From assembly GCF_900104575.1 (NCBI RefSeq), contig NZ_LT629730.1, forward strand, positions 124,001-188,000: 64,000 nt of DNA, given 5' to 3'. Under the pieces are notes generated by a model. That model saw nothing but the letters and a program-made list of their open reading frames with translations. It was not told where the DNA came from and searched no databases. Made by a program: the position numbers and the translations under genes. Numbering within the stretch: position 1 is the first letter of the stretch; every line of letters starts with the position of its first letter. Shown in pieces: positions 896-62,988 of the stretch. This stretch comes from Bacillus tuaregi (lineage in GTDB: Bacteria; Bacillota; Bacilli; Bacillales; Cytobacillaceae).

Positions 896-920
896 GTCAT
901 TTTTGGGTGCCCATTTTTGG

Positions 921-958
921 GTGCCTGTCACCGCCCGAAGTTTGGCGTTATTTGTCGA
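921..958 (+). repeat. Interspersed repeat, type B, head inverted
   Basis: Family definition: a 19-bp head GTGACAGGCACCRCCCGAA is followed by a tail. Type A tails carry TGTTTCAC twice (about 45 bp in all); type B tails carry TTTGTCGA-like words twice (about 38 bp). The first 11 bases of the head are a near-palindrome and occur in either sense. This copy has GTGCCTGTCAC at 921-931, CGCCCGAA at 932-939, then TTTGGCG and TTTGTCGA. It starts 25 bp after the stop of the propeller gene, in the same orientation. Confidence 0.85.
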
Positions 959-1014
959 CATTAAGGAATAAGAGAAGCTCAGTAGTCTAAATATTAGAAA
1001 TTAAATATAATCTA

Positions 1015-2234: not shown

Positions 2235-2729
2235 ATGATGACAAAATTAACAATCAAGCATATCGATGAATTACAATTAACTGGCTATAGTACGAGCGTG
2301 CCACTCCCAACAATGGAAAATGTGGAGGAAGTATCGAAACAAAAGACCGCACACTTCGGGTCCCTTGCCAAAAGTGGCAAATTTGGTGCGCTAATGGCTG
2401 GCAGCAGAGATAAAATCGGTTATGCGGTTGGGACAACCAGCAGTGATAGCTTATCCTATTTCGCAGGAGCAAATACGACGACCGTTGTGGAAGATGCGGA
2501 GCAATTAATTCTGCCGGCTAATGATTATGTCGTGCTTACGGCAGAAGGAGGTCAAAGCCGAAAATTATTCGACCAATTAATCCGCCAATTTTTTGGAGAA
2601 ATATTACCCAATCATCCAGAGCTTGAGTATGAAGATACGTATGTCATTGAAATGTTAGTAAACGGAAATCCAATGGATGCGGTTGTTGAATTAGCCGTCC
2701 CGGTGACAGGCACCGCCCGAAGTTTGTAG
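2235..2729 (+). CDS. Effector-binding (GyrI-like/AraC_E_bind) domain protein, YobU type, C-terminus encoded by a repeat
   Basis: A 164-residue stand-alone SOUL/GyrI-fold effector-binding domain: the N-terminal beta strand (KLTIKHIDELQLTGYS), central AGANTTTVVEDAEQLILPANDYVVL and the C-terminal DTYVIEMLVNG...DAVVELAVPV are typical of small-molecule-binding YobU-like proteins. No DNA-binding domain is present, so it probably binds a ligand for, or acts with, the divergent WYL regulator. An ATG at 2238 follows the first; RBS AAAAGAGGAATG lies close by. The last eight residues (VTGTARSL) and the stop codon come from the type B repeat at 2703, so the native stop has apparently been replaced. Confidence 0.82.
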   Translation: MMTKLTIKHIDELQLTGYSTSVPLPTMENVEEVSKQKTAHFGSLAKSGKFGALMAGSRDKIGYAVGTTSSDSLSYFAGANTTTVVEDAEQLILPANDYVVLTAEGGQSRKLFDQLIRQFFGEILPNHPELEYEDTYVIEMLVNGNPMDAVVELAVPVTGTARSL

Positions 2730-2740
2730 AATTATGTCGA
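2703..2740 (+). repeat. Interspersed repeat, type B, read through by the preceding gene
   Basis: The head at 2703-2721 is GTGACAGGCAC then CGCCCGAA; the tail is GTTTGTAGAATTATGTCGA. It begins inside the 3' end of the effector-binding gene; the gene's TAG at 2727-2729 lies in the tail. Confidence 0.9.
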
Positions 2741-2764
2741 CCTTTGTAAATTAAGAATAAATAC

Positions 2765-3564: not shown

Positions 3565-4168
3565 TCGGTACTGTCCCCTTTTTATTACTTAAATAGTATT
3601 CGATTAATCGGTCTACCTTGCTTTCCGTATAGAATGCCGGACTTTGAAGTACATGGATGACCATGCCATCGATAAAAGCATAAAGAGTTTCAAGCTCTAA
3701 TTCTACCTCGGCTTTTTCATCCACATATCCTAAATCTATCATCAGGTTCAACATCATCTGCACCATATTCCTTGAATAACGATCCATCCTTTGCTGTAAT
3801 TCGAAAAGTGTCGGATCACTGAAGGAACGCCCTAAGAATGAGATCCATACTCTTGCTTCCATTAATTCCTCATCATCAGTTGGAATAAGGAAATTCATTA
3901 ACCCTCTTAAAGTTTCTTCCTTTGTTCCAGTAAATGTTTGGGACCTTGCCTTTGCCCGTTCCTCCATCCGATTTAATACTAAATTCATCGCATAATGTAT
4001 AATTTTCTCTTTCGATGAAAAATTATGCTGTATTAAGCCAACTGACATTTGGGCTTCCTCTGCAATGTTTTGTATTGATGCTTTATCAATTCCTTTATTT
4101 AAAATCACTCGCCAAGTAGCAGCAGCAATTTGATTTTTTCTTTCAACAAGATCCACTTTTTTTGGCAT
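3557..4168 (-). CDS. TetR-family transcriptional regulator
   Basis: The protein has 203 residues from the ATG at 4168, preceded by AGAGAGGAG. An upstream in-frame extension to 4300 is open, but it lacks an RBS and runs through the operators and a degenerate repeat, so it was discarded. Residues 10-55 carry the TetR helix-turn-helix (ATWRVILNKGIDKASIQNIAEEAQ, then VGLIQHNFSSKEKII); the rest is a helical ligand-binding domain with TetR_C_6-like features. Two inverted repeats just upstream are likely autoregulatory operators. It is probably co-transcribed with the membrane protein at 3040. Confidence 0.88.
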   Translation of the reverse strand: MPKKVDLVERKNQIAAATWRVILNKGIDKASIQNIAEEAQMSVGLIQHNFSSKEKIIHYAMNLVLNRMEERAKARSQTFTGTKEETLRGLMNFLIPTDDEELMEARVWISFLGRSFSDPTLFELQQRMDRYSRNMVQMMLNLMIDLGYVDEKAEVELELETLYAFIDGMVIHVLQSPAFYTESKVDRLIEYYLSNKKGTVPNG

Positions 4169-6460: not shown

Positions 6461-7786
6461 GTGTCTCAACCGAATATTCCTAATATTTCGCCTAATATCA
6501 CAATTACTCGGGACGATGTGATTAATTTATTGCTTGCATCTATTGCAATGGAAGAGTTAGGGCTTGCCCATATCATTAATGCTGAGGGAGAAAAACTTCA
6601 ATATGTTTTGGGAACATTGCCAGGATTAACATTGCCTGCTTCATTGGAAGAGATTTTAGAAGTCAATGAAAGTGTGAAGGACATGCTTGAGATGGCAATG
6701 AAAAAGGAATTGCTGCTTGATAATAAATTGAAACAAGTTGCAGGTATTACAAATAATAGTGGTATTCCCGGGCCGCCTGGTCCAGAGGGTCCAGCCGGTC
6801 CAGAGGGTCCAGAGGGTCCAGCCGGTCCAGAGGGTCCAGAGGGTCCAGCCGGTCCAGCTGGTCCAGCTGGTCCAGAGGGTCCAGCCGGTCCAGAGGGTCC
6901 AGCCGGTCCAGAGGGTCCAGAGGGTCCAGCCGGTCCAGAGGGTCCAGAGGGTCCAGCCGGTCCAGCTGGTCCAGCTGGTCCAGAGGGTCCAGCCGGTCCA
7001 GAGGGTCCAGCCGGTCCAGCTGGTCCAGCTGGTCCAGAGGGTCCAGCCGGTCCAGAGGGTCCAGCCGGTCCAGAGGGTCCAGCCGGTCCAGAGGGTCCAG
7101 CCGGCCCAGAGGGTCCAGCCGGTCCAGAGGGTCCAGCCGGTCCAGAGGGTCCAGCCGGCCCAGAGGGTCCAGTCGGTCCAGAAGGTCCAGCCGGCCCAGA
7201 GGGTCCAGCCGGCCCAGAAGGTCCAGCCGGTCCGGAGGGTCCAGCCGGCCCAGAGGGTCCTCCAGGAGCCGGTGCCATCATTCCGTTTGCTTCGGGGACT
7301 CCTGTTACACTTACCACACTTTTAAATGGCTTAGCGGGTACGGGAGGCCTTATTGGATTTGGAAGTTCAGTTGCAGCTATTAATCTAGCTGGAGGTACGA
7401 TCGACCTTACAGGTGCAGCAGGGACCCTGCTCAACTTTGCATTTTCAGTACCACGAGAGGGAACGATTACTTCAATAGCCGCTTATTTCAGCGTAACAGC
7501 AGGACTTTCCCTTGCATTAGGTTCGATGACAATTAGAGCTCAACTATATCGATCCACTACACCAAATAATCTTTTCACGCCCATTCCTGGTGCCGAAGTT
7601 GTGTTAAGTCCAAATTTAACTGGTTTAATCTCATTAGGGGATATTGTGAATGGGAATATATCTGGACTAAATATCCCTGTATCACCTGAAGATCGTTTAT
7701 TATTGGTATTCTCCGCTACTACTAGCGGTCTGGCTGTCGTTAGTACGATTGCAGGGTACGCAAGTGGTGGTGTAGCTATTAGTTAA
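6461..7786 (+). CDS. BclB-like exosporium collagen-like glycoprotein
   Basis: The 441-residue protein starts at GTG behind AAAAGGAGAATGTGGA. Residues 1-97 are a leader domain ([21 protein letters not shown]...[19 protein letters not shown]) shared with two neighbours. Residues 101 to about 270 are uninterrupted Gly-Pro-[Ala/Glu] collagen triplets, roughly 56. Residues 271-441 match the BclB C-terminal domain ([49 protein letters not shown]). Such proteins form trimeric filaments on the exosporium of spores and are usually O-glycosylated on the collagen stalk; here almost no Thr is present in the stalk, so any glycosylation would have to be elsewhere. A GT2 enzyme is encoded 1.5 kb downstream. 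The stalk DNA is a near-perfect tandem array, so its length is likely to vary between strains. Confidence 0.93.
6767..7267 (+). repeat. Tandem array encoding Gly-Pro-X triplets
   Basis: About 500 bp built almost only from the 9-mers GGTCCAGAG, GGTCCAGCC and GGTCCAGCT. The reverse complement also reads Gly-Pro-X, giving a long open antisense frame that is an artefact. Confidence 0.95.
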
Positions 7787-10731: not shown

Positions 10732-10741
10732 GATAAGAGAA

Positions 10742-10779
10742 GTGACAGGCACGCCCCGAGATTTGTTGGTATTTGTCGT
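10742..10779 (+). repeat. Interspersed repeat, type B
   Basis: GTGACAGGCAC then GCCCCGAG and a tail with TTTGTTGG and TTTGTCG. It lies 10 bp after the leader-domain gene stop, in the same orientation. The GCCCCGA variant recurs at 29813. Confidence 0.85.
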
Positions 10780-10816
10780 TTTATAATATTTTTTATGGCT
10801 CCACCGAATCAAATAA

Positions 10817-13292: not shown

Positions 13293-13295
13293 TTG

Positions 13296-13333
13296 GTGCC
13301 TGTCACCACCCGAAGTTTGTCGGTTTTTGTAGA
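13296..13333 (+). repeat. Interspersed repeat, type B, head inverted
   Basis: GTGCCTGTCAC, CACCCGAA, then GTTTGTCGGTTTTTGTAGA. It is 3 bp after the rluF stop, in the same orientation. Confidence 0.85.
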
Positions 13334-13471
13334 TTTTTCTTTGTATTCCTATGTTATGTGTGATAAAAATCATAGGAATAATAGCAGCATTTAACCTACA
13401 ATTATTAATTGTGATAAGGTTATAAAAACTATGAACTATGTTCGGAAGGTTACCAATTAGTAGGTTTCAAT

Positions 13472-13989: not shown

Positions 13990-15981
13990 GTGAAAAAATT
14001 CCTTAGAAGTGGAAGCAGTATTAGATTCAGTCACATTAGAACAAAATTAATATCAGCCTTTGCCCTCATCTTAATCATTCCGATTGTGATTGTGGGTGCT
14101 TTATCTTTTTTAACAGCTAAAAATACAGTGGAGCAGGAAATGCTAGCTGGTATTAATCAAAATTTAAACCTGTTAAATTCATCGATTAACAATGAAATAG
14201 AATCAAAAATTCAAAACGTGGATTATTATGCTCAAACGATTCCGTCTGATTTGATGGATGAGAATAATGTAACAGAATTACGGAAACAGTTTGATCAATA
14301 TGTTAAACACCATCCTGAGATCGCAACGATTTATGTCGCAACAGATGAAGGAGTATTTATCCAAGAGCCTAATGTGGAGGTAAGTGCTGATTTCGATGCG
14401 AGAGAGCGTGCCTGGTATAAGGAGGCTAAGGAAAAGAACGGGGAAGCCGTGATTTCGGACCCTTATGTATCCGTCAGCACCGACAGCATGGTGTTGGCTA
14501 TTTCACAAACAACGAAGGACGGTAAAGGGGTAATGGCCGTCGATATTGATTTAGCCTATCTGCAAAAACTAACCAATCAAGTGAAGGTAGGCGATGGGGG
14601 TTATGCATTTCTTTTAGATGAAAATAAAACATACATCGCACACCCGCTGAACGAAGCAGGAAGTGAAGCGAGCTTAGATTTTTATAATAAAATGTATGAA
14701 CAGAATCAAGGTGAATTCACCTACGAATACAAAGGTGAACAAAGGATTATGAATTTCATCACCAATGATTTAACAGGGTGGAAATTAGCGGGGAACCTTG
14801 TCACTGCTGAGATTAGTTCCCATACTGCAACCATACTAAAAACTACGATTATTGTTATGCTGCTTTCTGTTTTCATTGGATCCATAGCTGTCTTCTTTAT
14901 TATTAAATCGATTATTACGCCTCTTAATAAAATTAAGGAAAAAGCGATTACAATTAGTCAGGGTGATTTAACCGAGCCGATTGAAATCAAAACGAACGAT
15001 GAGATTGGGCAGCTGGGAAGGGCCTTCAATGAAATGCAGGATAGTCTTCGAAATCTTGTTCAAAGACTAGAAAATAGCGCTAAGCAGGTGACGGATGCTT
15101 CTGAGGAATTGTCGGCGAATGCTGAACAGACAAGCTTAGCCACCGAACAGGTGACCTTGGCGATTCAGGAGATAGCAAGCAGTGCTGAAACACAAACACA
15201 TAAAGTAGAGGAAAATGCTCATTCCTTGGAAAGAGTGACAGCGGGTGTGTCCCAGATTGCCAAAAGCTCTACCAAGGTATCAGCGCTTTCTCATCACGCC
15301 ATGCAGTATGCAGAGGATGGCGGTCAAGCGGTGCAGAATACCGTAGCACAAATGCAATCGATCTATGATTCTGTTACGGAATCGAATCAAGTAATCAAAT
15401 TATTAAATGAGCGTTCAAAGGAAGTCAATTCCATCTTGTCTGTCATTACCAATATTGCCGACCAAACGAATCTATTAGCTTTAAATGCTGCGATTGAAGC
15501 AGCTCGTGCAGGGGAACATGGCAAAGGCTTTTCCGTCGTGGCTGAAGAGGTACGAAAACTAGCTGAGCAATCACAGCAGTCAGCGAAGGAAATCTATGAG
15601 ATTATCGACAGAATTCAAATTGATACAGGCAACTCTGTCACCATCATGGCTCGTGTTATGGAGGATGTTCAGAATGGGGTAAAGGTTTCCAATGATGCCA
15701 TCGATAAATTTAATAATATCATTCAGTCGACAAAAGAGATGACACCGCAAATGGGGGAAGTGTCTGCTGCAGCGCAACAAATGATAGCAGCAATCCAAGA
15801 GGTGACCGAATCCTCCAATGAATTAGCGGCCATTGCTCAAGAAAATGCAGCCACATCAGAAGAGGTTGCGGCTTCAACCGAAGAACAGCTGGCTTCAATG
15901 GAGGAAATCTCCAGCTCCTCTAAGTATCTTTCAAGCATGGCAGAGGAATTAAATGGGCTGGTTTCTCAGTTTAAATACTGA
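13990..15981 (+). CDS. Methyl-accepting chemotaxis protein with dCache sensor
   Basis: The 663-residue transmembrane chemoreceptor resembles B. subtilis McpA/McpB/TlpA in length and layout; GTG start. Residues about 20-43 form TM1; 45-275 an extracellular dCache_1 sensor ([22 protein letters not shown] is the typical Cache motif); about 283-305 TM2 ([19 protein letters not shown]); 305-357 HAMP; then the cytoplasmic signalling helix with the hairpin tip [20 protein letters not shown]. Cache receptors bind amino acids or organic acids; the ligand is unknown. It signals to CheA/CheW. The stop is directly followed by a type A repeat. Confidence 0.92.
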
Positions 15982-16026
15982 GTGACAGGCACCCCCCGAA
16001 AAATCTTGTTTCACAGATTGTTTCAC
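15982..16026 (+). repeat. Interspersed repeat, type A
   Basis: The head variant CCCCCGAA is followed by the type A tail with two TGTTTCAC words. It starts at the first base after the chemoreceptor stop codon, in the same orientation. Confidence 0.92.
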
Positions 16027-16069
16027 ACGGGTTATTTATTAACTTAAATGAATCTACGGTGAGACAAAA

Positions 16070-16723: not shown

Positions 16724-16743
16724 AAATTGTTTGATTAATTTCG

Positions 16744-16780
16744 GTGCCTGTCACCGCCCGAAGTTTGTCGAATAAGGGCA
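16744..16780 (+). repeat. Interspersed repeat, type B, head inverted
   Basis: GTGCCTGTCAC, CGCCCGAA, GTTTGTCGAATAAGGGCA. The tail extends like that of the copy at 20923 (AAT-R-AGGGCA-Y-ATC). No same-orientation gene ends here. Confidence 0.85.
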
Positions 16781-16953
16781 TATCTGTTGCCTAGTGCCGC
16801 TCGTTAAGTAGTCACACTTGTCTTGTTTTTTCGTTTGAATTAGTTTACAGTCTCGCCCCCTCTTGCAAGCGATGCTTGTCTTGCTCTAATATTATTTTAA
16901 GATAATAAAAAACGCGTGAATGAACCATCCCCGCGTTTGAGGGGGAAACCAAT

Positions 16954-19680: not shown

Positions 19681-20922
19681 ATGAAAAGAGGAATCGATAT
19701 GAGAGATAGCAAGAATCGCTGGCTCATCGTGTTAGGAACCATTATCGTCATGATGGCATTAGGGACCATTTATACATGGAGTTTATATAATCAATCACTA
19801 GTTGATCGTTTCGGCTGGGAGTTAAGTTCTGTTTCGACGACCTTTTCGATTATGAGTTTATCATTGGCTGTTGCCACTTTGTTTTCAAGTAAGCTTCAGG
19901 AAAAAATCGGTCTTAGACGGTTAATCCTGTTTTCTGGTTTCGCGATGGGATTAGGATTGATCATTAGCTCGCAAATGTCATCTTTATGGGGATTATACTT
20001 ATTCGCTGGAATCGTTGTTGGGGGCGCAGATGGACTTGCCTATATGACCACCCTATCCAATGCACTGAAGTGGTTTCCAGAGAGAAAAGGGTTAATTTCA
20101 GGAATTTCTGTTGGTTCGTACGGTATGGGAAGTCTATTTTTCAAATATATAAACGGCGCCATTCTTGAAGCAGTGGGGATTACGCAAACCTTCTTATTCT
20201 GGGGCATCATTGTCATCGTGATGATGGCTGTCGGCTCCTTCTTTATTAGAGAGGCAACGGTAAAAGCTGGAGCGTCGGCTGCCCAATTGCCTGTTGCAAG
20301 GAATTACTCTGTAAAAGAAATGCTTCGTACAAAAGAAGCCTATCTCTTGTTTATTGTGTTATTTACAACTTGTATGAGCGGATTATTTGTAATTGGCATT
20401 GTAGCCGATATTGGGGTAAGTATGGTCGGCTTGAGCGCAGCTTCAGCAGCAAACGCAGTCGCTATCGTCGCCATCTTTAATACACTTGGTCGGATTGTTC
20501 TTGGATCGCTATCAGATAAATTGGGCCGTATGACTGTCGTATCAGGCTCAATTATCGCCATGACGCTTGCTGTTGCCGCTCTAAGCTACCTCGACTTAAA
20601 TTACGGCTTCTATATCGCCAGTGTCGCCATCATCGCTTTCAGCTTTGGCGGAAATATAACGATTTTCCCTGCCATCGTTGCTGATTTCTTTGGCTTGAAA
20701 AATTCCGGTCAAAACTACGGAATCATTTATCAAGGTTTCGGATTAGGTGCCTTAAGCGCCTCCTTCATCTCCATCCTGCTTGGAGGATTCGCATCAACGT
20801 TTAAACTGATCATGGTGTTAAGTATTATGTCAGTCATCATCGCCTTGACACTTAAAGCACCAAGGGCTAAGCAAGAAAAAGGAAAAGTCGTCCTCAAAAA
20901 ATTACAGCATAAAGCTAGCTGA
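19681..20922 (+). CDS. OFA-family MFS transporter (YhjX-like)
   Basis: The 413-residue, 12-helix major facilitator belongs to the oxalate/formate antiporter group: helix 1 MMALGTIYTWSLYNQSLVDRFGW and the loop ALKWFPERKGLISGISVGSYGMG are diagnostic. An internal ATG at 19699 is an alternative start; the first ATG is preceded by only weak RBS bases, whereas AAAAGAGGAATCGAT precedes the second, so MRDSKNRW may be the true N-terminus. E. coli YhjX is induced by the pyruvate-responsive YpdAB LytTR system, and this gene sits directly after a LytS/LytTR pair with a candidate binding site. Substrate is probably a carboxylate such as pyruvate, formate or oxalate (inference). Confidence 0.88.
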   Translation: MKRGIDMRDSKNRWLIVLGTIIVMMALGTIYTWSLYNQSLVDRFGWELSSVSTTFSIMSLSLAVATLFSSKLQEKIGLRRLILFSGFAMGLGLIISSQMSSLWGLYLFAGIVVGGADGLAYMTTLSNALKWFPERKGLISGISVGSYGMGSLFFKYINGAILEAVGITQTFLFWGIIVIVMMAVGSFFIREATVKAGASAAQLPVARNYSVKEMLRTKEAYLLFIVLFTTCMSGLFVIGIVADIGVSMVGLSAASAANAVAIVAIFNTLGRIVLGSLSDKLGRMTVVSGSIIAMTLAVAALSYLDLNYGFYIASVAIIAFSFGGNITIFPAIVADFFGLKNSGQNYGIIYQGFGLGALSASFISILLGGFASTFKLIMVLSIMSVIIALTLKAPRAKQEKGKVVLKKLQHKAS

Positions 20923-20959
20923 GTGACAGGCACCGCCCGAAGTATGTCGAATGAGGGCA
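20923..20959 (+). repeat. Interspersed repeat, type B
   Basis: Head plus tail GTATGTCGAATGAGGGCA. It begins at the first base after the transporter stop, in the same orientation. Confidence 0.9.
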
Positions 20960-20983
20960 CATCCTGCCATTTAAATCCATAAT

Positions 20984-25221: not shown

Positions 25222-25358
25222 TAACAGCATTTTCAAATAAAGCAAAAACCTTCCAAATTAAGTTCGGAGGGTTATTTGAGTTGCGCATTTTTAGTATAGC
25301 ATGAAGTTGTTTTCGATTTAAAAGATTTTTCTTGACAATCTATTAGCTGGTTTAGTGT

Positions 25359-27140
25359 ATTGACCTTTGGCTGGTATTCCAGATACATTTCGTTATTCAT
25401 CAAGGCTTTTCGCAAATCCTTTTCTAATTGAAACTTTTTAAACGATTCAATGTTCATTAAGGATGAATAGACTTGCCAATGACTTTGTCCGATTTCCTTT
25501 ATATTGTGTAAGGCAATTGCGGCTTTTTTTAAAAGAGTATGAGAATCCTCGCCATCAAAAGGGTAATAACAAATCCCAACGCTTGTGGTTGAATAGATTT
25601 CCTCCTCCTCGAGGTAAAAAGGCTTCTCAAATTCCTGAATAATCTTTTTTGCCACTTGGATGGCATCCTCTGCTTCGATAATATTTCTGACATAGATGGC
25701 AAATTCATCTCCTGCAATACGGGCAAGAAACGTATCCTCGCCCACGAGGACACGATTTAACCTTTCAGCAATACTAATAAGCAGCTCATCGCCTAATTGA
25801 TATGAAAAGGTATCGTTAATCGATTTTAAGCGGTCAATGCCTAGATATAAAACAGCAAATTTCTCTGCATGGCTTTGCGACTGAATATGCTCGGTTAAGA
25901 CCCTTTTAAAGTAACGACGATTCGGAAGTCTAGTTAAAGAATCGTGGTCTGCGAGAAACGAAAGAGCATCAATATACACTTTTTCCTCGGTAAAATCCTC
26001 GACAAATCCATCTATTTGCATCACTTTTCCGGTGTGCTCAAAATAGGGAATCATTTGGACGCGAAGGCATTTTTCAATTCCTTTTACATTTCGAATCCGA
26101 TACTTATGGGTCACTTCTTTTCCATTGATTGCCTTGTCTATGTTTTCAATAACAGAGGGTAAATCATCTTCGTGAATGCTGTCGGTCCATAATAAAGGCT
26201 TCATCATTAGTTCAGCTTGATTTAACCCATATATGTCCTCTAAGCCCTTGGAGCAGAATATATGTCGATTTTCGTTTAAACTATAGGACCAAATCCCAAC
26301 CTGTAAACGATCGGTAATCGATTGTAGCATCTGTTCATTTTTGTTTAACTGATTTTCAATTTCCCTTTGTGAAGTGACATCCTGAACGGTCCCTATTATC
26401 CGAATCGCCTTTCCTGTCTCATCAAGCATGATTTCAGCGCGTTGATAAAGGGTCCTTTGTTCCCCGCTATTTTTAAGAATTCTCGTTTCAAGCTCATAGC
26501 CTTCGCCGAAATGCTTGGCTCTACCTAGTGTTTTTTCAACCTTCTCTAAATCATCCGGATGGATTAATTTTGCTATCGATTCATTAGCAGGGATAAAGTC
26601 TGGATCCTCGATTCCGAAAATTTGATAGGTTTGCTGTGACCAAAAGGCTTCATTTTCGATTAAATCATAATCAAAGCTGCCGATGTTTGTTCTTTTTTGG
26701 GATTGCTGTAGATGATCGGTTAGGATTAGAATCCCTTTTTCGTATAATTGGGTGGTTCGCAAATCCTTACAGACACAATAGGTGAGTATACTTTTATCCT
26801 TCTGCACGCTTGGAATGACTGATATCTCCACAGGGATTCTATACCCTTTTTTATGGATTAACTGACAGTCAAAAGAAGAAGGGAGGTTATGAAAGGCTTT
26901 GTGGATATGGTATTGAAATTTCTCAAAGTCATGTGGGGATATCCATTTATCTATATCTTCCAAGACATCCTTAAGCGAATGTCCTAATAGATGGGTGAAA
27001 GCCTTATTGATTGATAGTATTTGTTCATTTACATTCATCGTAAAAATGGCGTCAGGGTAGTCTAAAAATAAGGATGTGTTTTCCAAAAAATTACCAGCTG
27101 TAGATGTTTTGCTATTTGTCCATTTGTCCCAAAAAAACAT
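25359..27140 (-). pseudogene. N-terminal half (PAS-PAS-PAS-GGDEF) of the IS-split c-di-GMP enzyme
   Basis: The preferred start is ATG 27140 (MFFWDKWTNSK) behind AGTAGGTGG; the frame is open to 27263. Three PAS/PAC units precede a GGDEF domain with RIAGDEFAIYV (AGDEF variant, usually active) and LGIDRLKSINDTFSYQLGDE. It then enters the EAL domain (MYLEYQPKVN) and is cut by the IS; the frame continues 28 codons into IS sequence before a stop at 25272. The product would be a c-di-GMP synthase without its EAL and PilZ parts, so the insertion may change the enzyme from bifunctional to synthase-only. Confidence 0.85.
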
Positions 27141-27428
27141 TAAAGTCCACCTACTCTTCATTTCCGCATATTTGTTCTCCATCTTGAAAAAAAGAAAACT
27201 CACATTCATACCGAAAGTGAGCCAAAAAGCATTTATTTTCGGTAACCTGGCTGGCATATCCATACAGACGTAGCCCCTCTAGTTTTGCGTCCCATCATTT
27301 CCAATGGTTTGCCATTTCGTATAAAACATATGTAATTTTCTCGTGATATTGATTATCATCTAATATATTATATAAAAATACTAAATTCTGTCAATTGATG
27401 GTATAAAATTCATACAATTACAATTAGA

Positions 27429-27473
27429 GTGACAGGCACCACCCGAAAAATCTTGTTTCACAAAATGTTCCAC
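27429..27473 (+). repeat. Interspersed repeat, type A, in an inverted pair
   Basis: Head CACCCGAA variant; tail with TGTTTCAC and TGTTCCAC. It is followed 14 bp later by an inverted head at 27487. It is not adjacent to a gene end. Confidence 0.9.
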
Positions 27474-27486
27474 GCTGAGTAATGGA

Positions 27487-29808: not shown

Positions 29809-29812
29809 GGGA

Positions 29813-29850
29813 GTGACAGGCACGCCCCGAAGTTTATCGGATTTTGTCGA
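29813..29850 (+). repeat. Interspersed repeat, type B
   Basis: GTGACAGGCAC, GCCCCGAA, then GTTTATCGGATTTTGTCGA. It is 4 bp after the soluble chemoreceptor stop, in the same orientation. Confidence 0.9.
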
Positions 29851-29994
29851 TTTGATGATAGGCACGGTACCACCTGTAGTAGGTTAGTACATATTCGTTA
29901 GTGGTCTCGTGCGTGTTCAAACGGGAGTGCTGACTATCGGCAGTAACTGTATGCTTGAAAAATAAATGGAAAAATGGACTTCCTACCTCTCCAT

Positions 29995-34925: not shown

Positions 34926-34958
34926 TATAACCGAGAATGAGAATTATTATCACGAAAA

Positions 34959-35004
34959 GTGACAGGCACCACCCGAAAAATCTTGTTTCACAAAAATGTT
35001 TCAC
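34959..35004 (+). repeat. Interspersed repeat, type A
   Basis: Head with CACCCGAA; tail with two TGTTTCAC-like words and one extra A between them. It lies 76 bp after the DUF1540 gene, past its terminator. Confidence 0.9.
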
Positions 35005-35109
35005 AGCCCATAGGGTAAGAAATACCAAATGGATTATGAAACATTGTGATGATACAGAACGATATTAAGGTGAAGCCGGTGACTTGTCCATATGAAATAA
35101 GAACGTCAC

Positions 35110-36244: not shown

Positions 36245-36263
36245 GCGGAAAACGTAAAAAGTG

Positions 36264-36308
36264 GTGACAGGCACCGCCCGAAAAATCTTGTTTCACAGAA
36301 TGTTTCAC
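36264..36308 (+). repeat. Interspersed repeat, type A
   Basis: Consensus-like copy, 19 bp after the DsrE-like gene, same orientation. It is the first part of a 110-bp block repeated at 39052. Confidence 0.93.
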
Positions 36309-36373
36309 ATGGTTAGCTATTCGAAGTGAATATATGAAGTAGACCTGGAATCAGAGCATTCCAGGTCTATTTT
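36264..36373 (+). repeat. Left copy of a 110-bp direct repeat flanking the SLH operon
   Basis: Type A repeat plus about 65 bp (GTTAG, TCGAAGTGAATATATGAAGT, terminator stem). Nearly identical to 39052-39162. Confidence 0.9.
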
Positions 36374-39050: not shown

Positions 39051-39051
39051 G

Positions 39052-39096
39052 GTGACAGGCACCACCCGAAAAATCTTGTTTCACAAAATGTTTCAC
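39052..39096 (+). repeat. Interspersed repeat, type A
   Basis: CACCCGAA head variant. It is 1 bp after the SLH gene stop, same orientation, and part of the right 110-bp block. Confidence 0.93.
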
Positions 39097-39162
39097 AGGG
39101 TTAGATAATCGAAGTGAATATATGAAGTAGACCTGGAATCAGAGCATTCCAGGTCATTTTTT
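39052..39162 (+). repeat. Right copy of the 110-bp direct repeat flanking the SLH operon
   Basis: Type A repeat plus the same following 65 bp as at 36264, including the terminator stem ACCTGGAA/TTCCAGGT (39130-39153) and T-run. Confidence 0.9.
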
Positions 39163-39660: not shown

Positions 39661-39836
39661 CTTAATAAAAGTAGTTAAACCGCATAATTCCTTGCCCAGG
39701 AGCAGCTATTTTTACAAAAATCCCTATATCAACCCGCCGAGCTTTGGATACGAACAGGATTCATGATTCTGATGAAGTGTGGGAGAATTCTTTCAGAAGG
39801 GTCCATCACGGAACTAGAATCACTGAATCATGCTCC

Positions 39837-39881
39837 GTGAAACATTTTGTGAAACAAGAAAATTCGGGTGGTGCCTGTCAC
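39837..39881 (-). repeat. Interspersed repeat, type A
   Basis: Minus-strand copy; the head lies 5 bp after the stop of the minus-strand GerB gene (39887), same orientation as the gene. Confidence 0.92.
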
Positions 39882-39886
39882 TTTTT

Positions 39887-43866: not shown

Positions 43867-43932
43867 CAAGCATCACTCACTCGTAGTTGGTAAAATTAGT
43901 ATGACCAATTTTAGAATAAAAATGAGTAGGGG

Positions 43933-43977
43933 GTGACAGGCACCACCCGAAAAATCTTGTTTCACAGAATGTTTCAC
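43933..43977 (+). repeat. Interspersed repeat, type A, left arm of an inverted pair
   Basis: CACCCGAA head variant. It faces the type B copy at 44027-44055, and the two 20-bp heads are complementary. Confidence 0.92.
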
Positions 43978-44026
43978 GGACTTGGAGAGAGTACTTAATA
44001 GATTAAGGAGAGCCAATGCGCTCTCC

Positions 44027-44055
44027 TTCGACAAATTTCGGGCGGTGCCTGTCAC
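44027..44055 (-). repeat. Interspersed repeat, type B, short
   Basis: Minus strand: GTGACAGGCAC, CGCCCGAA, ATTTGTCGAA. It is 10 bp after the stop of the minus-strand GerC gene, same orientation. Confidence 0.85.
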
Positions 44056-44065
44056 CTATTCTTAC

Positions 44066-46679: not shown

Positions 46680-46936
46680 TGGTCTTGTATGCCTCGCTTC
46701 ATTGGTAAATAACTAATCAAAAACAGGGAGAACGTAAAGAACATACTGCAGATAAAAGAAATCGGGTAAAAAACCTTTCCAAAGAAAGCTCCCCTTTTTT
46801 TAACAGAAAATCCAGTTCTTCTAGTTGGTTCATTGGTCTTGTATGCCTCGCTTCATTGGTAAATAACTAATCAAAAACAGGGAGAACGTAAAGAACATAC
46901 TGCAGATAAAAGAAATCGGGTAAAAAACCTTTCCAA
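46629..46936. repeat. Exact 154-bp tandem duplication across the GerB-GerA junction
   Basis: Copy 1 is 46629-46782 and copy 2 is 46783-46936; they are identical by inspection. Each contains the GerB 3' end, its stop, and the first 51 bp of GerA. Before duplication the GerB stop and GerA start overlapped as ATGA. Confidence 0.93.
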
Positions 46937-47912: not shown

Positions 47913-47994
47913 CCCAACCAACACCACCATTGTTCACTCAATACAAAGTATTTTTTGGATAATCCTGCAGAATTATACAGGGTGACTATACAGA

Positions 47995-48039
47995 GTGACA
48001 GGCACCACCCGAAAAATCTTGTTTCACAGGATGTTTCAC
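47995..48039 (+). repeat. Interspersed repeat, type A
   Basis: CACCCGAA head. It lies upstream of the GerB gene (opposite strand) and 205 bp before the next plus-strand gene, so it is not at a gene end. Confidence 0.92.
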
Positions 48040-48246
48040 AGCTCGTTGCATCAAATTAAATGTGACGGAAATTTCCAGAAAGAGAATGAGTTTGTTACGG
48101 GAATTTCTCCTTTTTTTACAAAATGATTGTCCGCCCTTGTTAGCGGTCTTAGGGAGATGTATAGACGGGTAGCCTAGGATTTTTTTATAATAGAGAAATA
48201 GTCAAAATGAGTAGATAAAGAGAAATATAAATGTGGGGATTGTGTG

Positions 48247-48705
48247 ATGAATATAAAAATGCTTGTGTTAGATGTCGATGGAACGCTTACGGACGGTAAA
48301 ATCTATATGGGTTCACATGGGGAAATGATGAAGGCTTTTAATGTGAAAGATGGATTTGGCATTGTTAAGCTTCAAGCTCAAGGGATTGTTCCTGTTATTA
48401 TGACAGGGCGTGTATCCGAGATAGTAGAGCAAAGGGCCAAGGAGCTAGGAATAACCGAGATCCATCAAGGGATAAAAGACAAGGTGAAGGTATTAAGACA
48501 AATCGCTGATCGGTATCAATATCAGCTTGAGGAAGTAGCCTATATCGGTGATGATGAGAATGATATTGAATCTATGAAGCTATGTGGAGTAGTAGGCTGC
48601 CCAGCAGATGCAGTAGATTCTGTAATAGAGATTGCGGATTATGTATGCAAACGAAAAGGTGGAAAGGGTGCCGTTAGGGAATTCATTGAATATCTGCTTG
48701 AGTGA
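48247..48705 (+). CDS. KdsC-like HAD phosphatase
   Basis: The 152-residue protein starts at ATG 48247 (a GTG precedes it). The HAD motifs are intact: LDVDGTLTDGKIYM (nucleophile Asp plus acid Asp), MTGR, K-loop KDKVKVLRQI and GDDENDIESM. It has no cap domain, as in KdsC/YrbI-type enzymes that dephosphorylate 8-phosphate sugar acids such as KDO or sialic-acid-like nonulosonates. Those sugars decorate surface polymers. No synthase gene is adjacent, but a glycosyltransferase follows. The stop codon TGA is supplied by the repeat head (48702). Confidence 0.85.
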   Translation: MNIKMLVLDVDGTLTDGKIYMGSHGEMMKAFNVKDGFGIVKLQAQGIVPVIMTGRVSEIVEQRAKELGITEIHQGIKDKVKVLRQIADRYQYQLEEVAYIGDDENDIESMKLCGVVGCPADAVDSVIEIADYVCKRKGGKGAVREFIEYLLE

Positions 48706-48746
48706 CAGGCACCGCCCGAAAAATCTTGTTTCACAGAATGTTTCAC
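48702..48746 (+). repeat. Interspersed repeat, type A, supplying a stop codon
   Basis: Consensus copy. The TGA at 48703-48705, bases 2-4 of the head, is the stop of the KdsC-like gene. Confidence 0.95.
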
Positions 48747-48877
48747 AGGGTCTGTCTTTCCTTTCCTTTTCTTCAACCAATCTAACAGCTATGCCCTCCC
48801 TCAACACAATGGAACCTTTCTTATGCTATAATTCACCAGACAACGATAGAATTTTTTTACATAGAAAGAGGAATTAG

Positions 48878-50077
48878 ATGATGAACAAGAAAGTGTTATT
48901 TATCAGCAGCTCCATTGGTCTTGGGCATGCGGCGAGGGATTTGGCGATTGCGAAGGAAATGAAGAAGCGGAACCCTGATATTGAAATTTCCTGGCTGGCG
49001 GGTGACCCTGCCCGAAGAGTGATTGAGGAAGCGGGCGAGTATTTGCTGCCAGAATGCCAGCTGCTCGGAGAGGATAGCTTATTGGCTGAGCAGGTGTCGA
49101 ATGGCTACGGATTAAATGTTAATACCTATTTATTTCGGGTGCTATTGGAATGGCGAAAAAGTATTGCGGTCATCAATAAGATTACAAAGGAAAATCAATT
49201 CGACCTAATCATTGCGGATGAGGCATATGAATTAATTTTAGCCTTTTTACTGTTTCCAGGTATCAAGCGGAAGGCTCCTTTTGTGATGATTTATGACTTT
49301 TTTGGCTTTGATGCGACCACTAAAAATCCCATTGAAAAATTGGGTACCTACCTTTGGAATTTCGCTTGGATTACAGGCAATCGTATTCCCTGGGTGGAGG
49401 ATCTGTCACTGTTTGTCGGAGAAGCAGACGATATTGCGGATAAATCCTATGGGTTATTTTTACCAAGTGCAAGAAAGCATGCGGAAAAGCATTATAACTT
49501 CCTGGGGAACATTCTTGCCTTTGACCCACAGAATTATCGCGATTCGGTAGAGCTGAAAAGCCAGCTTGGTTATGGAAAAGGGCCTTTGATTATATGTGCG
49601 GTTGGCGGAACGGCGATTGGGGTCGACCTATTAAATCTATGTTCACGTACCTACGGCTTGTTAAAAGCTAAAGTGCCTGACCTACAGATGGTGCTCGTCT
49701 GCGGGCCGCGAATCGATCCGGATTCTGTTACGGTGACGGAAGGAATCGAGATCAATGGCTATGTACCTGAATTATATAAGCATTTAGCCGCAAGTGACCT
49801 GGCGATTGTCCAGGGTGGTGGGACGACCACGATAGAGCTCGCTTCCATGAGAAAGAACTTCCTTTATTTCCCTTTAGAAGAGCACTTTGAGCAAAAACTG
49901 GTGTCTGATAAACTGACAAGGCTTGGAGCCGGGGTTAAAATGAACTTTTCCGAAACGGATGAAGGGACACTGGCAAAAGCTGTGCTGGACCACTTAGGTA
50001 AGAAGGTTGAGCATCAAGAGGTTAAGATAAACGGAGCGGTAAAGGCAGCAGAGTTTATCCAGCCGTTGTTGGGGTAG
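48878..50077 (+). CDS. GT28/UGT-type glycosyltransferase
   Basis: The 399-residue protein starts at ATG behind AAAGAGGAATTAG. GT-B fold: the N-terminal domain begins VLFISSSIGLGHAARDLAIAKEM (MurG/UGT-like nucleotide-fold start) and the C-terminal donor domain has VGGTAIG, INGYVPELYKHLAASDLAIVQGGGTTTIELASM and PLEEHFEQ, the sugar-nucleotide-binding signature. It is similar in layout to glycosyltransferases acting on lipids, antibiotics or polysaccharides; acceptor unknown. The stop is immediately followed by a type A repeat. Possibly in one functional set with the KdsC-like phosphatase. Confidence 0.85.
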   Translation: MMNKKVLFISSSIGLGHAARDLAIAKEMKKRNPDIEISWLAGDPARRVIEEAGEYLLPECQLLGEDSLLAEQVSNGYGLNVNTYLFRVLLEWRKSIAVINKITKENQFDLIIADEAYELILAFLLFPGIKRKAPFVMIYDFFGFDATTKNPIEKLGTYLWNFAWITGNRIPWVEDLSLFVGEADDIADKSYGLFLPSARKHAEKHYNFLGNILAFDPQNYRDSVELKSQLGYGKGPLIICAVGGTAIGVDLLNLCSRTYGLLKAKVPDLQMVLVCGPRIDPDSVTVTEGIEINGYVPELYKHLAASDLAIVQGGGTTTIELASMRKNFLYFPLEEHFEQKLVSDKLTRLGAGVKMNFSETDEGTLAKAVLDHLGKKVEHQEVKINGAVKAAEFIQPLLG

Positions 50078-50122
50078 GTGACAGGCACCGCCCGAAAAAT
50101 CTTGTTTCACAGAATGTTTCAC
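50078..50122 (+). repeat. Interspersed repeat, type A
   Basis: Begins at the base after the glycosyltransferase TAG, same orientation. Confidence 0.95.
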
Positions 50123-50162
50123 GCGTGAGGCAGTGTCTCGTTCTTAATTTAGCTAGTCAATT

Positions 50163-50318: not shown

Positions 50319-50819
50319 ATGTTTGACAAATTTAGAAAGAAGAAACAAAAGGATCCACTTCAAGTCGTTGAAGGACAAGAGCTTCATCTCAGCAATGAAG
50401 AGGTAGAGGATTTAAGAAGTAAAGCTGAAACGATGGATGAAAAAGCACTTCAGGAGCATAGCAAACATTACTCGGAAAATGGGCTTTGGGAAAAAATAAA
50501 AAAATACTCTAAAAAGGCTGGTTCCTCTGCTGTATACGCGGTGCTGCTCCTTTATTATGTATTACAAAAGAAAGAGGTACCAAAGAAAAGCAAAGCGGTC
50601 ATCCTTGGCGCCTTAGGATATTTTATTTTACCTTTAGACTTTATTCCGGATATCGCTGCCGGAATTGGCTTTACCGATGACATCGGGGCACTCGTTGCCG
50701 CTCTATGGCAGGTATCCATGTACATTGATGCCGACGTAAAGCAGCAAGCAAGAGATAGACTCAAAAGTTGGTTTGGCGACCATGTAGATACCTCGGAAAT
50801 TGATGATAAATTGGTGTAG
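50319..50819 (+). CDS. YkvA/DUF1232-family membrane protein
   Basis: The 166-residue protein starts at ATG behind CTAGGAGG. The DUF1232 core (residues about 90-130) is GALGYFILPLDFIPDIAAGIGFTDDIGAL, with one hydrophobic helix pair. The N-terminal half is charged and helical. Function of the family is unknown, though it is widespread in Bacillus (YkvA). Monocistronic, with a type A repeat directly after the stop. Confidence 0.88.
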   Translation: MFDKFRKKKQKDPLQVVEGQELHLSNEEVEDLRSKAETMDEKALQEHSKHYSENGLWEKIKKYSKKAGSSAVYAVLLLYYVLQKKEVPKKSKAVILGALGYFILPLDFIPDIAAGIGFTDDIGALVAALWQVSMYIDADVKQQARDRLKSWFGDHVDTSEIDDKLV

Positions 50820-50864
50820 GTGACAGGCACCGCCCGAAAAATCTTGTTTCACATGATGTTCCAC
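50820..50864 (+). repeat. Interspersed repeat, type A, left flank of the RAYT region
   Basis: Begins right after the DUF1232 stop. With the inverted copy at 51927 it brackets the transposase gene (1,160 bp in total). Confidence 0.95.
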
Positions 50865-50904
50865 GGATTACCGGGACCTGGAGAGGAGCGCTTTTCAGGT
50901 CTGT

Positions 50905-51130
50905 TTAACTTCATTCAGCAAATGCTTTTTGTACCGAAAGCTTGCGACAGGTACAGAAGTCCGCAACTTCTACAAGTGGGGGATGAATGCAAATGGTACT
51001 TTGATTCAGTGGAGGTCAAACCCCGGGGAAAATGAAGTTAAGCCTCCGGCGGATGTCTCGGATTTTTTTAAGGTAGTTTATCGAGCGAGCTCGATAAAAT
51101 CTGGTCGCAAATTCGACGGGCGAATTTGAT
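50905..51130 (+). repeat. Structured non-coding repeat S, longest copy
   Basis: A 226-bp element between the DUF1232 gene and the transposase. Predicted hairpins include GTACC-N14-GGTAC (50931-50954), GAAGT-CCGCA-ACTTC (50956-50970) and AAATTCG-N5-CGAATTT near the 3' end. It contains ATTCAG at 50913 and 51004; deletion between these gives the copy at 1054. Possibly an IS-related RNA or MITE. Short open frames across it are not convincing. Confidence 0.7.
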
Positions 51131-51361
51131 TTTTTTTTAAAAATATTTATCCTTATTTAAAGGATTATAGGGATTGTTATCGAAATATAATAATGAAATC
51201 CCTCTATAATCAACATCTTATCATAACCTTCGATTTATTCAGGGCTGCTATCAGGGGAACTTTTAGTAGCACATATTTTACCCGTGATTTATCCACTTCC
51301 TTTTTTTCAATGAAAGTAGTTCTAGCTAAAAAAATAACATTCGACTGCGAGGAACCGACCT

Positions 51362-51916
51362 ATGCCGCGTAAGAGAAGAATCTGGGTTTTCGACCACTAT
51401 TACCATATCACGTGTCGGGGAAACCGAAAGGACACTCTGTTTCATAGCACGGAGGACTTTCAAGCTTTTCTCCATATCCTGCATCAGCTTCATGAAAAAA
51501 TCCCCTTTGAAGTTGCCTCTTTTTGTTTCATGACCAACCATTATCATCTCCAGTTACGTTCGACAGAGGTTCCTATTTCAAAATTAATGGGGATCATCAA
51601 CACACGTTATTCAAAGTATTACAACACAAAATATTGTCTAACCGGACATGTATTTGAGAAACGTTTTTTTGACAAAATCATAGTCGATCAGGAAGGGATG
51701 CTTGAGTTGAGTAGTTATATTCATCAAAATCCAGTTGAAGCCAACATAGTCAAGCAGCCCGAGCATTATCAGTGGAGCAGCTATCGTTTTTACAAAAATC
51801 CCAATTCTCTGCCGCCGGTGTTTGTTAATTTGAACAGTCTCCTAAACTTTTATGAAGGGACAGAGAGGGAGAAGAGGAGACAGTTTTGTCAGTACGTTCC
51901 AATTAAGGAGCGCTGA
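51362..51916 (+). CDS. REP-associated tyrosine transposase (RAYT), Y1_Tnp family
   Basis: The 184-residue protein starts at ATG behind GAGGAACCGACCT. It has the HUH motif in FMTNHYHLQL (H60-Y61-H62), the GHVFEKRF segment at 95-102 and the catalytic tyrosine in SSYIHQNPV (Y119), all typical of TnpA_REP proteins that cut and join single-stranded DNA at REP elements. It carries no accessory TnpB and no IS200-type ends. It stands alone between inverted type A repeats, and the 3' one starts 11 bp after its stop. This supports a role in moving the repeat family (inference). Confidence 0.92.
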   Translation: MPRKRRIWVFDHYYHITCRGNRKDTLFHSTEDFQAFLHILHQLHEKIPFEVASFCFMTNHYHLQLRSTEVPISKLMGIINTRYSKYYNTKYCLTGHVFEKRFFDKIIVDQEGMLELSSYIHQNPVEANIVKQPEHYQWSSYRFYKNPNSLPPVFVNLNSLLNFYEGTEREKRRQFCQYVPIKER

Positions 51917-51926
51917 ATCGTTATCC

Positions 51927-51979
51927 GTGAAACAATTCGCGATTCTGTGAAACAAGATTTTTCGGGCGGTGCCTGTCAC
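51927..51979 (-). repeat. Interspersed repeat, type A, with 8-bp insertion, next to the RAYT gene
   Basis: Minus-strand copy. Between its two GTGAAACA words the spacer is ATTCGCGATTCT instead of about four bases, making it 53 bp. The head is 2 bp after the cheB stop (minus strand); the tail is 10 bp after the RAYT stop. Confidence 0.92.
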
Positions 51980-51981
51980 CC

Positions 51982-59357: not shown

Positions 59358-59697
59358 CACCATGGCCTCCCTTGGAGAGCGGTATTCGAACCGATTAGTT
59401 TTAAGGATTATATTATTGTGAAGATGTGAACAAATAAAATAACTTGGATGAAGTTGCAATAAGTGCAGTAGGGGGATTTCGTTCACTGTATAAGATTGTA
59501 ATGCATCTGGTTGTATCCCATCATGCTATTGACCTGTCCTAAATGCAAACGGTTGAAGTAGTTGGAGTGTCGTGTGTGTAGTTCTAATTGACCCTTTACA
59601 ACGAAGGACTAATTTACTATCACTTAAGAACATTATATCGATAAAATTTCACCTAGTAAATGGAATTTGTTTGACGAATTCGAAACATTCAAAAATA

Positions 59698-59743
59698 GTG
59701 ACAGGCACCACCCGAAAAATCTTGTTTCACAGGAATGTTTCAC
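59698..59743 (+). repeat. Interspersed repeat, type A
   Basis: CACCCGAA head, one extra base in the tail spacer. No plus-strand gene ends near it. Confidence 0.92.
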
Positions 59744-59860
59744 AAGAAAAGGGGGTTTGGGGATGTAGATAGGAGGCAAATGGTGGTATAGCAATAAATC
59801 AACTGTGTAAGATAAGATACGACAACCATATAAACAAGTGGAGATCCTTTTCTACTATTT

Positions 59861-62199: not shown

Positions 62200-62224
62200 A
62201 TGGCAGATGTGTGATTAGTCAATA

Positions 62225-62269
62225 GTGACAGGCACCACCCGAATAATCTTGTTTCACATAATGTTCCAC
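62225..62269 (+). repeat. Interspersed repeat, type A
   Basis: Variant with GAATAATC and TGTTCCAC. It lies upstream of the GntR operon, on the opposite strand. Confidence 0.9.
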
Positions 62270-62390
62270 GGAAGCAGGGTGGCATGGTTATGGTGTTGGG
62301 GTTATTCAATGAAGGGTGGAGTAGAAGTGTTGAGGTAAGAGATGCATGTGTTTTGCGTTAATAAATTTAAAAGCAGATCATTAACGAAAC

Positions 62391-62822: not shown

Positions 62823-62824
62823 AG

Positions 62825-62861
62825 GTGACAGGCACCGCCCGAAGCGTGTCGAATTGACTTA
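62825..62861 (+). repeat. Interspersed repeat, type B, first of a direct pair
   Basis: Head plus GCGTGTCGAATTGACTTA. Its left edge coincides with the truncation of the membrane gene. Confidence 0.85.
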
Positions 62862-62865
62862 TGGA

Positions 62866-62910
62866 GTGACAGGCACCGCCCGAAAAATCTTGTTTCACAG
62901 GATGTTTCAC
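62866..62910 (+). repeat. Interspersed repeat, type A, second of a direct pair
   Basis: Consensus-like copy 4 bp after the type B copy, same orientation. It is the only direct B-A tandem in the window. Confidence 0.93.
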
Positions 62911-62988
62911 AGAGAAGCGGGTCGTTGGGCTTAGAGCTTCATTTGTTAGATAAAGCAGAATATCTAGGAATAATAAGAACGGTTCTAA

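Follow-up and report, generated by a model that had tools for sequence, protein, structure and literature searches.

In REPs the foot has the form GT[AG]G, and the passages compared from the classification of Y1 transposases report that no REP-like sequences were found for subclass 2.1 (PMC6006769). The corresponding passages of a second study describe GTAG and CGTC REPs, REPtrons and TIRtrons with the motif GGGGWSAS, and name bcr1 as a MITE (PMC3733652). Parts of further RAYT/REP literature were also compared (PMC8266576, PMC3116915, PMC2817692). The words "Firmicutes" and "Bacill-" are absent from the main text of PMC6006769, and "Firmicutes" is absent from the main text of the RAYT/REP literature searched for that word, which includes PMC6006769 and PMC3733652. 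Among the matches listed, no title or abstract dealt with a Gram-positive RAYT/REP system, with the letters of the repeat described below, or with yifB together with a tyrosine transposase. Bacillota RAYT groups may have been mentioned before by Bertels and colleagues (2017), whose work PMC6006769 cites.

Here we analyse 64,000 nt of Bacillus tuaregi (contig NZ_LT629730.1, positions 124,001-188,000, forward strand), hereafter the window. It contains a RAYT and tagged hairpin elements that together look like a Gram-positive counterpart of the Gram-negative REP/RAYT systems. The system is not that of a canonical GTAG REP, from which it differs in tag, hairpin size, local spread and polarity within the bacterial family of the window organism.

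The enzyme and the repeated element in the window

The product of the RAYT-like gene (Table 1) matches Pfam Y1_Tnp with 44 bits against a cut-off of 23, and NCBIfam REP_Tyr_transpos with 71.8 bits, below the cut-off of 80, such that equivalog level is not reached. It contains the motifs NHYH (HUH) and YIHQNP (Tyr, with the Y---NP signature), and residues N59, H60 and H62 of the HUH motif, along with Y119 and P124, were invariant across 28 aligned sequences. Among solved structures, the chain closest to it in sequence is TnpArep 4er8 (E 0.0036). When the window protein and two homologues were searched at E values up to 1, Pfam returned Y1_Tnp alone and a C-terminal HTH was absent. The gene is preceded by a DUF1232 gene and followed by a convergent cheB (both from Pfam).

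Five Y1 genes are present in the genome of the window. Searching this genome with the RAYT gave four matches, with identities of 100, 59 and 41% among the matches listed; the enzyme is of low copy with diverged paralogues, as are RAYT/TnpA_REP enzymes. If the elements were the ends of an ordinary IS200/IS605 insertion sequence, with the RAYT as its transposase, membership of the same enzyme superfamily and the inverted copies flanking the gene in the window would be explained. However, only five Y1 genes exist, the other RAYT matches listed are 59 and 41% identical, the elements outnumber the gene by tens, and no tnpB was seen among the neighbouring ORFs, as judged by reading the ORFs and by Pfam on five chosen ones. 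We consider this explanation very improbable.

The repeat head, allowing up to three mismatches, was found at 24 places in the window, compared to a mean of 0.01 in 100 shuffles. The orientation that applies across genomes is the reverse complement of this head, tail-TTCGGG-NN-hairpin, and the resulting tag-plus-hairpin pattern recovers the same 24 places, 21 on the minus and three on the plus strand. Of the 304 sufficiently flanked copies in the stitched stretches, 12 were two-sided and were set aside; the remaining 292 one-sided copies yield the consensus C-R-A-S-A-W-W-W-T, TCGGG, two loose bases and GT-S-M-C-W-G-K-S-AC. Since the TCGGG and hairpin letters are set by the search pattern, it is the tail and the edge that constitute evidence. 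Beyond the hairpin there is one further base (C in 168/292 copies), after which information drops to approximately zero, thus the hairpin side of the element forms a sharp edge. Among the 292, a tail of type A, in which GTGRAACA occurs twice in direct orientation, was found in 109, a tail of type B (TTCGACAAAAT) in 124 and neither type in 59. The type A tail holds a direct repeat of GTGAAACA, which resembles half of the Bacillus parS site.

Hairpins of the window elements have a 4 bp stem. Five stretches were folded, and the three from the window gave z-scores no better than shuffles (-0.05, -0.34 and 0.73), while stretches of genomes G097 and G011 gave -1.35 and -3.48, respectively. Window elements show neither the stable 20-40 bp palindrome of GTAG-superfamily REPs nor GT[AG]G as a tag where the hairpin begins; all 24 carry TCGGG-NN before the hairpin. 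Elements of genome G129 are mostly two-sided (TCGGG-NN-hairpin-NN-CCCGA) and resemble the double-foot REPs described for another subclass.

An earlier note, made from the letters of the window, had claimed a Y1 transposase with HUH and Tyr motifs at 51362, without a tnpB partner and lying between inverted copies of a repeat that occurs 24 times in 64 kb and is unlike known REP sequences. The observation was confirmed, with heads free of mismatches at 50820 (+) and 51961-51979 (-) on the two sides of the gene, and with the GTAG tag that defines canonical REPs absent.

Table 1. Positions of the RAYT gene, the tagged hairpin elements and associated features in the window
Feature	Position	Strand	Basis
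Element, tail B, hairpin GTGACAGGCAC	920..972	-	tag+hairpin pattern
Element, tail B; read into 3' end of ORF 2235..2729	2702..2754	-	pattern; ORF list
Element, tail B	10741..10793	-	tag+hairpin pattern
Element, tail B, hairpin GTGACAGGCAC	13295..13347	-	tag+hairpin pattern
Element, tail A; abuts stop of ORF 13990..15981	15981..16033	-	pattern; ORF list
Element, tail B, hairpin GTGACAGGCAC	16743..16795	-	tag+hairpin pattern
Element, tail B; abuts stop of ORF 19681..20922	20922..20974	-	pattern; ORF list
Element, tail A	27428..27480	-	tag+hairpin pattern
Element, tail B	29812..29864	-	tag+hairpin pattern
Element, tail A	34958..35010	-	tag+hairpin pattern
Element, tail A	36263..36315	-	tag+hairpin pattern
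Element, tail A; far side of GNAT gene plus RAYT remnant	39051..39103	-	pattern; Pfam
Probable remnant, 3' end of second RAYT	39670..39745	+	E 0.094, weak alone; shared DNA stretches support
Element, tail A; 3' of probable RAYT remnant	39830..39882	+	tag+hairpin pattern
Element, tail A; inverted pair with 44004..44056	43932..43984	-	tag+hairpin pattern
Element, tail B; inverted pair with 43932..43984	44004..44056	+	tag+hairpin pattern
Element, tail A	47994..48046	-	tag+hairpin pattern
Element, tail A; overlaps stop of ORF 48244..48705	48701..48753	-	pattern; ORF list
Element, tail A; abuts stop of ORF 48878..50077	50077..50129	-	pattern; ORF list
Element, tail A; 5' of RAYT; abuts stop codon of DUF1232 gene (50819)	50819..50871	-	pattern; ORF list; Pfam
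Separate 230-nt dispersed repeat inside flanked unit; not judged part of system	50903..51131	+	genome search
RAYT-like Y1 HUH transposase, 184 aa	51362..51916	+	ORF list, Pfam, NCBIfam, alignment
Element, tail A; 3' of RAYT, inverted relative to 5' copy	51928..51980	+	tag+hairpin pattern
Element, tail A	59697..59749	-	tag+hairpin pattern
Element, tail A	62224..62276	-	tag+hairpin pattern
Element, tail B	62824..62876	-	tag+hairpin pattern
Element, tail A	62865..62917	-	tag+hairpin pattern

Several further features of the window were recorded. The 230-nt repeat was scored at 39 further places in the genome; its copies are approximately 90% identical and end in a hairpin and a T run, and it matched no Rfam family at the gathering score. 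Among its 34 listed copies on contig C16, 20 of 22 below 2.02 Mb are on the plus strand and 10 of 12 above it on the minus strand, and because the orientation flips at this position the repeat seems to follow the replichore. The sole Rfam match at the gathering score, for the RAYT unit and the window, was a c-di-GMP-I riboswitch located elsewhere (27238-27323, minus strand, 69.7 bits), which overlaps the 5' end of an ORF reading as a PAS/GGDEF protein (25272..27263). A perfect 154-base tandem duplication (46629-46936) extends across the boundary between two genes on the minus strand, both of which read as encoding germination receptors. The window also contains an IS110-type transposase gene (23986-25221, plus strand; Pfam DEDD_Tnp_IS110 and Transposase_20) and, from 6662, a nine-base repeat array within ORF 6461..7786 that codes for a collagen-like GPAGPEGP protein. 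An integron-like cassette array was considered and rejected; the window has genes on both strands that read like those of an ordinary chromosome, and the majority of elements are not placed behind a stop codon.

Association of the elements with close RAYTs

The pattern TCGGGNNGTSHCWGDSAC was searched in 193 genomes of the window organism's family and was present in 117, while its backwards control gave three matches in three genomes. A close RAYT (at least 51% identity, E approximately 1e-53 or better) was found in 41 genomes, counting a pseudogene in G113 and partial genes in G038 and G012. Seven genomes with a RAYT of 45-46% were set aside (15, 18, 15, 14, 1, 1 and 7 elements), and the remaining 145 include short or broken RAYT pieces of 52-56% in G028, G118, G134, G007 and G129. 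At least one element was found in 38/41 genomes with a close RAYT compared to 72/145 of these others, and at least five in 33/41 compared to 18/145; the median counts were 9 and 0, respectively. Copy number among the close-RAYT genomes ranges from 0 to 102.

Eight of the 18 element-rich genomes without a close RAYT were searched again, and in three of the eight a RAYT piece or distant RAYT was located in or beside an element cluster. G129 (121 copies) has a broken piece of 56% identity (C3:57636-57902) inside a dense cluster, and G007 has a piece at 3844661-3844843 beside a cluster at 3846-3849 kb. In G003 (83 copies), a 32%-identical RAYT at 3800168 falls within the largest cluster, where elements are mostly on the other strand; strands in G003 are mixed overall. 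A close RAYT piece was absent from the other five: G005, G022, G131 and G158 contain only distant RAYTs (33-42%), and the RAYT search found none in G033 (14 copies). Element positions relative to a RAYT come, among these five, from G005, where the nearest element seen lies approximately 75 kb from its distant RAYT.

Repeat density is local rather than genome-wide. The genome of the window (4.86 Mb) contains 26 exact heads, and 22 of these fall in C15:118.9-212.7 kb. In the complete genome G077, 43 of 45 elements are located at 4.286-4.572 Mb, and a 54%-identical RAYT at 4.351 Mb. Over 40 genomes, 205 of 706 elements lay within 20 kb of a fetched close RAYT against 5.0 expected under uniform spread, a 40-fold enrichment in tallies where two-sided elements are counted twice and some contigs end inside 20 kb. 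At least one element was found within 20 kb of 39/47 RAYT copies and none for the other eight; such locus counts are not independent because the loci are related by descent.

An element (up to two mismatches) was present at the 3' end of the RAYT in 16/47 loci, compared to 68/1120 random windows from the same stretches, and within 600 nt upstream in 14/47 loci (a count made without random windows). Flanking of the RAYT by inverted repeats, a REPtron trait, is seen in the window; across the 47 loci elements are mostly in one orientation, and tightly flanking inverted copies are not the usual layout. The earlier note had likened the layout to that of REP-flanked RAYTs, and of this the proximity of repeats was upheld (39/47) while the tight flank proved to be a minority arrangement. 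Two comparisons that had been set beforehand came out in favour of the association: repeats are far rarer in genomes without a close RAYT (median 0 compared to 9), and RAYT orthologues usually lie near repeats.

Hairpins fall into two classes, GTG..CAC and GTC..GAC. The strict GTG-class pattern was also seen in two stretches of viral contigs. Each RAYT was labelled by the majority class of its nearest elements, at most five and none farther than 20 kb (a 1-1 tie in G002 was assigned to GTC), giving labels for 38 of 45 RAYTs (24 GTG, 14 GTC). On a maximum-likelihood tree of the 45 RAYTs, in which branch support is modest and long branches are flagged, the class changes four times, compared to a mean of 11.6 and a minimum of 6 in 300 label shuffles. 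Seven changes were counted on a quick 57-row tree that also covered distant RAYTs and was run without shuffles. The window RAYT pairs with the GTG class, and its paralogue on contig C5, which has one element, clusters with GTC-associated RAYTs of other genomes. Thus two RAYTs of one genome have different hairpin classes as their clades predict, which argues against simple inheritance by genome. The repeat type co-evolves with its RAYT, as in the GTAG-superfamily REPs.

These results bear on whether the repeat (a terminator, a protein-binding site or another MITE) could be unrelated to the RAYT, with the two just accumulating in one chromosome region and on one strand. The preference of elements for gene 3' ends would suit such a repeat, as would the five of eight exceptional genomes that show no RAYT in the cluster, and the orientation of the RAYT, taken by itself, could be due to a bias in gene orientation. 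However, an unrelated repeat does not readily account for a 40-fold enrichment at RAYTs over 40 genomes, for hairpin classes that follow the RAYT tree, or for RAYT pieces in or beside the clusters of G129 and G007, and we judge it improbable.

In another collection, a RAYT with elements within 8 kb was found at 4 of 12 loci (Virgibacillus indicus, Metabacillus bambusae, Peribacillus glennii and Aquibacillus kalidii), and the other eight loci (29-36% identity, metagenome bins of other groups) contained no element. Plasmids lacked a close RAYT and gave three distant matches only (31-36% identity).

Strand polarity, gene ends and persistence of the elements

Strand was scored for 47 RAYT copies (50% identity or more over a minimum of 90 residues) in fetched stretches. 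Among 214 RAYT-element pairs within 20 kb, in which elements between neighbouring RAYTs are counted twice, 197 were on opposite strands and 17 on the same strand. Opposite elements formed the majority for 37 of the 39 RAYT copies with elements, with a same-strand majority in G037 and a tie in G038. GC skew and ORF direction of the fetched stretches served as stand-ins for the replication fork. The RAYT strand matched the sign of local GC skew and the ORF direction in 47/47 copies (44 stretches; in four, of less than 4 kb, the RAYT's own sequence influences the skew measure). Because the RAYT is on the presumed leading strand every time, fork polarity and gene polarity are inseparable near RAYTs; moreover, 24 of the 47 lie behind yifB, and RAYT orientation may simply be that of yifB.

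At the four named loci of the other collection, elements were opposite to the RAYT in 5 of 10 cases (Virgibacillus indicus 0/3, Metabacillus bambusae 1/2, Peribacillus glennii 1/2, Aquibacillus kalidii 3/3). In the Virgibacillus indicus locus (L096) the elements at 8579, 10747 and 10776 are all on the strand of the RAYT, contrary to the family rule. At a distance from close RAYTs, four elements of G005 (4.10-4.17 Mb) and four of G011:C3 had the reverse sign with respect to skew. Since the named loci, G005 and G011:C3 break it, we take the strand rule as a finding on the window's family rather than on the system in general.

Elements prefer gene 3' ends. The hairpin edge lies 1-4 bases behind a stop codon for 20/305 elements, and between -3 and +4 of a stop for 30/305, compared to 67/11409 intergenic control points. 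Modes of the stop position at -3 (10 elements) and -9 (16 elements) fit a TGA inside the hairpin, because the hairpin letters, worked by hand, contain such a TGA.

In tight syntenic gaps between G011 and G013, elements were exact and on the same strand in 7/9 and 9/9 cases, compared to 3/170 and 1/160 control non-coding 18-mers, and their flanks were approximately 67-80% identical. Most comparable sites of this pair hold the element in both genomes, thus many elements are old and have been maintained there. At some sites the hairpin was inverted or exchanged. At positions 4159 and 6076 of locus L076, compared to G013:C1 61080 and 62988, it is inverted (GTGACAGGCAC versus GTGCCTGTCAC), which might reflect quasi-palindrome template switching or enzyme action. 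From G165 to G175, tight gaps retained 0/3 elements exactly and 9/60 control 18-mers; in looser intervals three G165 elements were matched by a version with one mismatch, a single G175 site serving two of these, and three had no counterpart. From G119 to G141, 0/1 elements and 0/7 controls were kept, and in the reverse direction 1/1 and 3/20. Absences comprised one element in a tight interval (G011 9687 compared to G013) and, in loose intervals, three for G165 versus G175 and two for G141 versus G152, with no clean junction. The syntenic intervals compared between related genomes contained no cleanly edged empty site, so that movement of the element is something we infer.

In 24/47 loci (for example L027, L028 and L031), a C-terminal motif of a YifB/ComM-type Mg-chelatase ATPase precedes the RAYT start by 137-141 bases and is on the strand of the RAYT; the window locus is without yifB/comM. 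For L028, the only locus scanned, Pfam identified ChlI, Mg_chelatase and Mg_chelatase_C in the 1500 bases upstream of the RAYT, and the stop of the yifB-type gene directly precedes the RAYT start. yifB/comM and the RAYT form a conserved gene pair, an ssDNA enzyme with a ComM-type ATPase.

Retention and gene pairing raise the possibility that the elements are host-selected sites (fork-polar ssDNA, transcription-end or recombination signals) that a domesticated RAYT processes, in which case the clustering would mark the domain served rather than recent transposition. Along with the retention in G011/G013 and the position of the RAYT directly behind yifB/comM, strand polarity within the family and the scarcity of RAYT matches on plasmids agree with such sites. 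However, copy number varies from 0 to 102 between genomes with a close RAYT, none of the three elements was kept from G165 to G175 when 9/60 control 18-mers were, polarity fails in the four named loci, and the RAYT could itself bring about retention through correction. We regard host-selected sites as possible, although on balance unlikely.

A model for the system and its relation to described systems

Taken together, these results support a model, to which we assign a probability of approximately 0.7, in which a REP/RAYT-type system of Bacillota has an enzyme that recognises the tail-TTCGGG-hairpin in ssDNA and copies or moves the element, mostly nearby. The RAYT would bind the tail, TTCGGG and small hairpin in ssDNA, probably at the replication fork, and would then copy or move the element, mostly no farther than tens to a few hundred kb from the RAYT gene. 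In the window's family new elements would land in one orientation, often right behind stop codons, and the RAYT may perhaps also maintain hairpin elements. The element, its sharp edge, clustering, the family strand rule, covariation with RAYT clade and retention in one genome pair are supported directly. An enzyme that spreads or maintains the elements on ssDNA is the best explanation, and cleavage, movement, fork coupling and the substrate strand are what we infer.

A more speculative and less probable proposal is that the RAYT has been domesticated and forms, together with its elements, a system that processes ssDNA with fork polarity in a chromosomal domain around the RAYT gene. The elements would be kept by selection or by enzyme-driven correction, in which a hairpin is inverted or replaced at its site. 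The RAYT would work with YifB/ComM, beside which it is encoded in half of the loci, in single-strand recombination or DNA uptake.

Repeats that crowd the gene of their enzyme, one way round within a family, make the long-standing question of whether and how RAYTs spread REPs directly testable, with Bacillus subtilis available as a tractable host. The analysis offers an in silico signature of distance, strand and hairpin class, none such being described in the RAYT/REP passages compared. The passages compared from the Y1 classification report no repeats for the subclass that the window enzyme resembles (PMC6006769).

Among described systems, IS200/IS605 (IS608, ISDra2) share the enzyme family and, according to the passages compared, have ssDNA hairpin ends and lagging-strand coupling. 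They differ in that here no tnpB was seen among the neighbouring ORFs, no near-identical gene copies occurred among the matches listed, and the elements far outnumber the gene. The bcr repeats of the Bacillus cereus group, of which bcr1 is about 155 bp, are likewise dispersed intergenic repeats in Bacillaceae, a likeness at the level of description. TnpA_Y1 subclass 2.1/TIRYT, as far as the compared passages describe it, shares the NH[YF]H and Y[IV]HLNP motifs with most homologues and the flanking inverted repeats with the window (PMC6006769, PMC3733652). In contrast to this group, Pfam found no C-terminal HTH in the window protein of 184 aa, and the TIR motif GGGGWSAS was absent from both strands of 50800-52000.

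The TnpA_REP/RAYT enzymes with GTAG REPs (the REPtrons of Proteobacteria and others) are alike in having a low-copy Y1 HUH enzyme and many short elements per enzyme, each a tag plus a hairpin, that prefer gene 3' ends. In both systems the repeat type goes with the enzyme clade and two-sided (double-foot) forms exist, here in G129. While the GTAG REPs carry GT[AG]G at the hairpin foot, the tag here is TTCGGG, two bases from a hairpin of 4-6 bp and joined to an extra tail of two types, and tens of copies lie largely in one region with one main orientation in the family.
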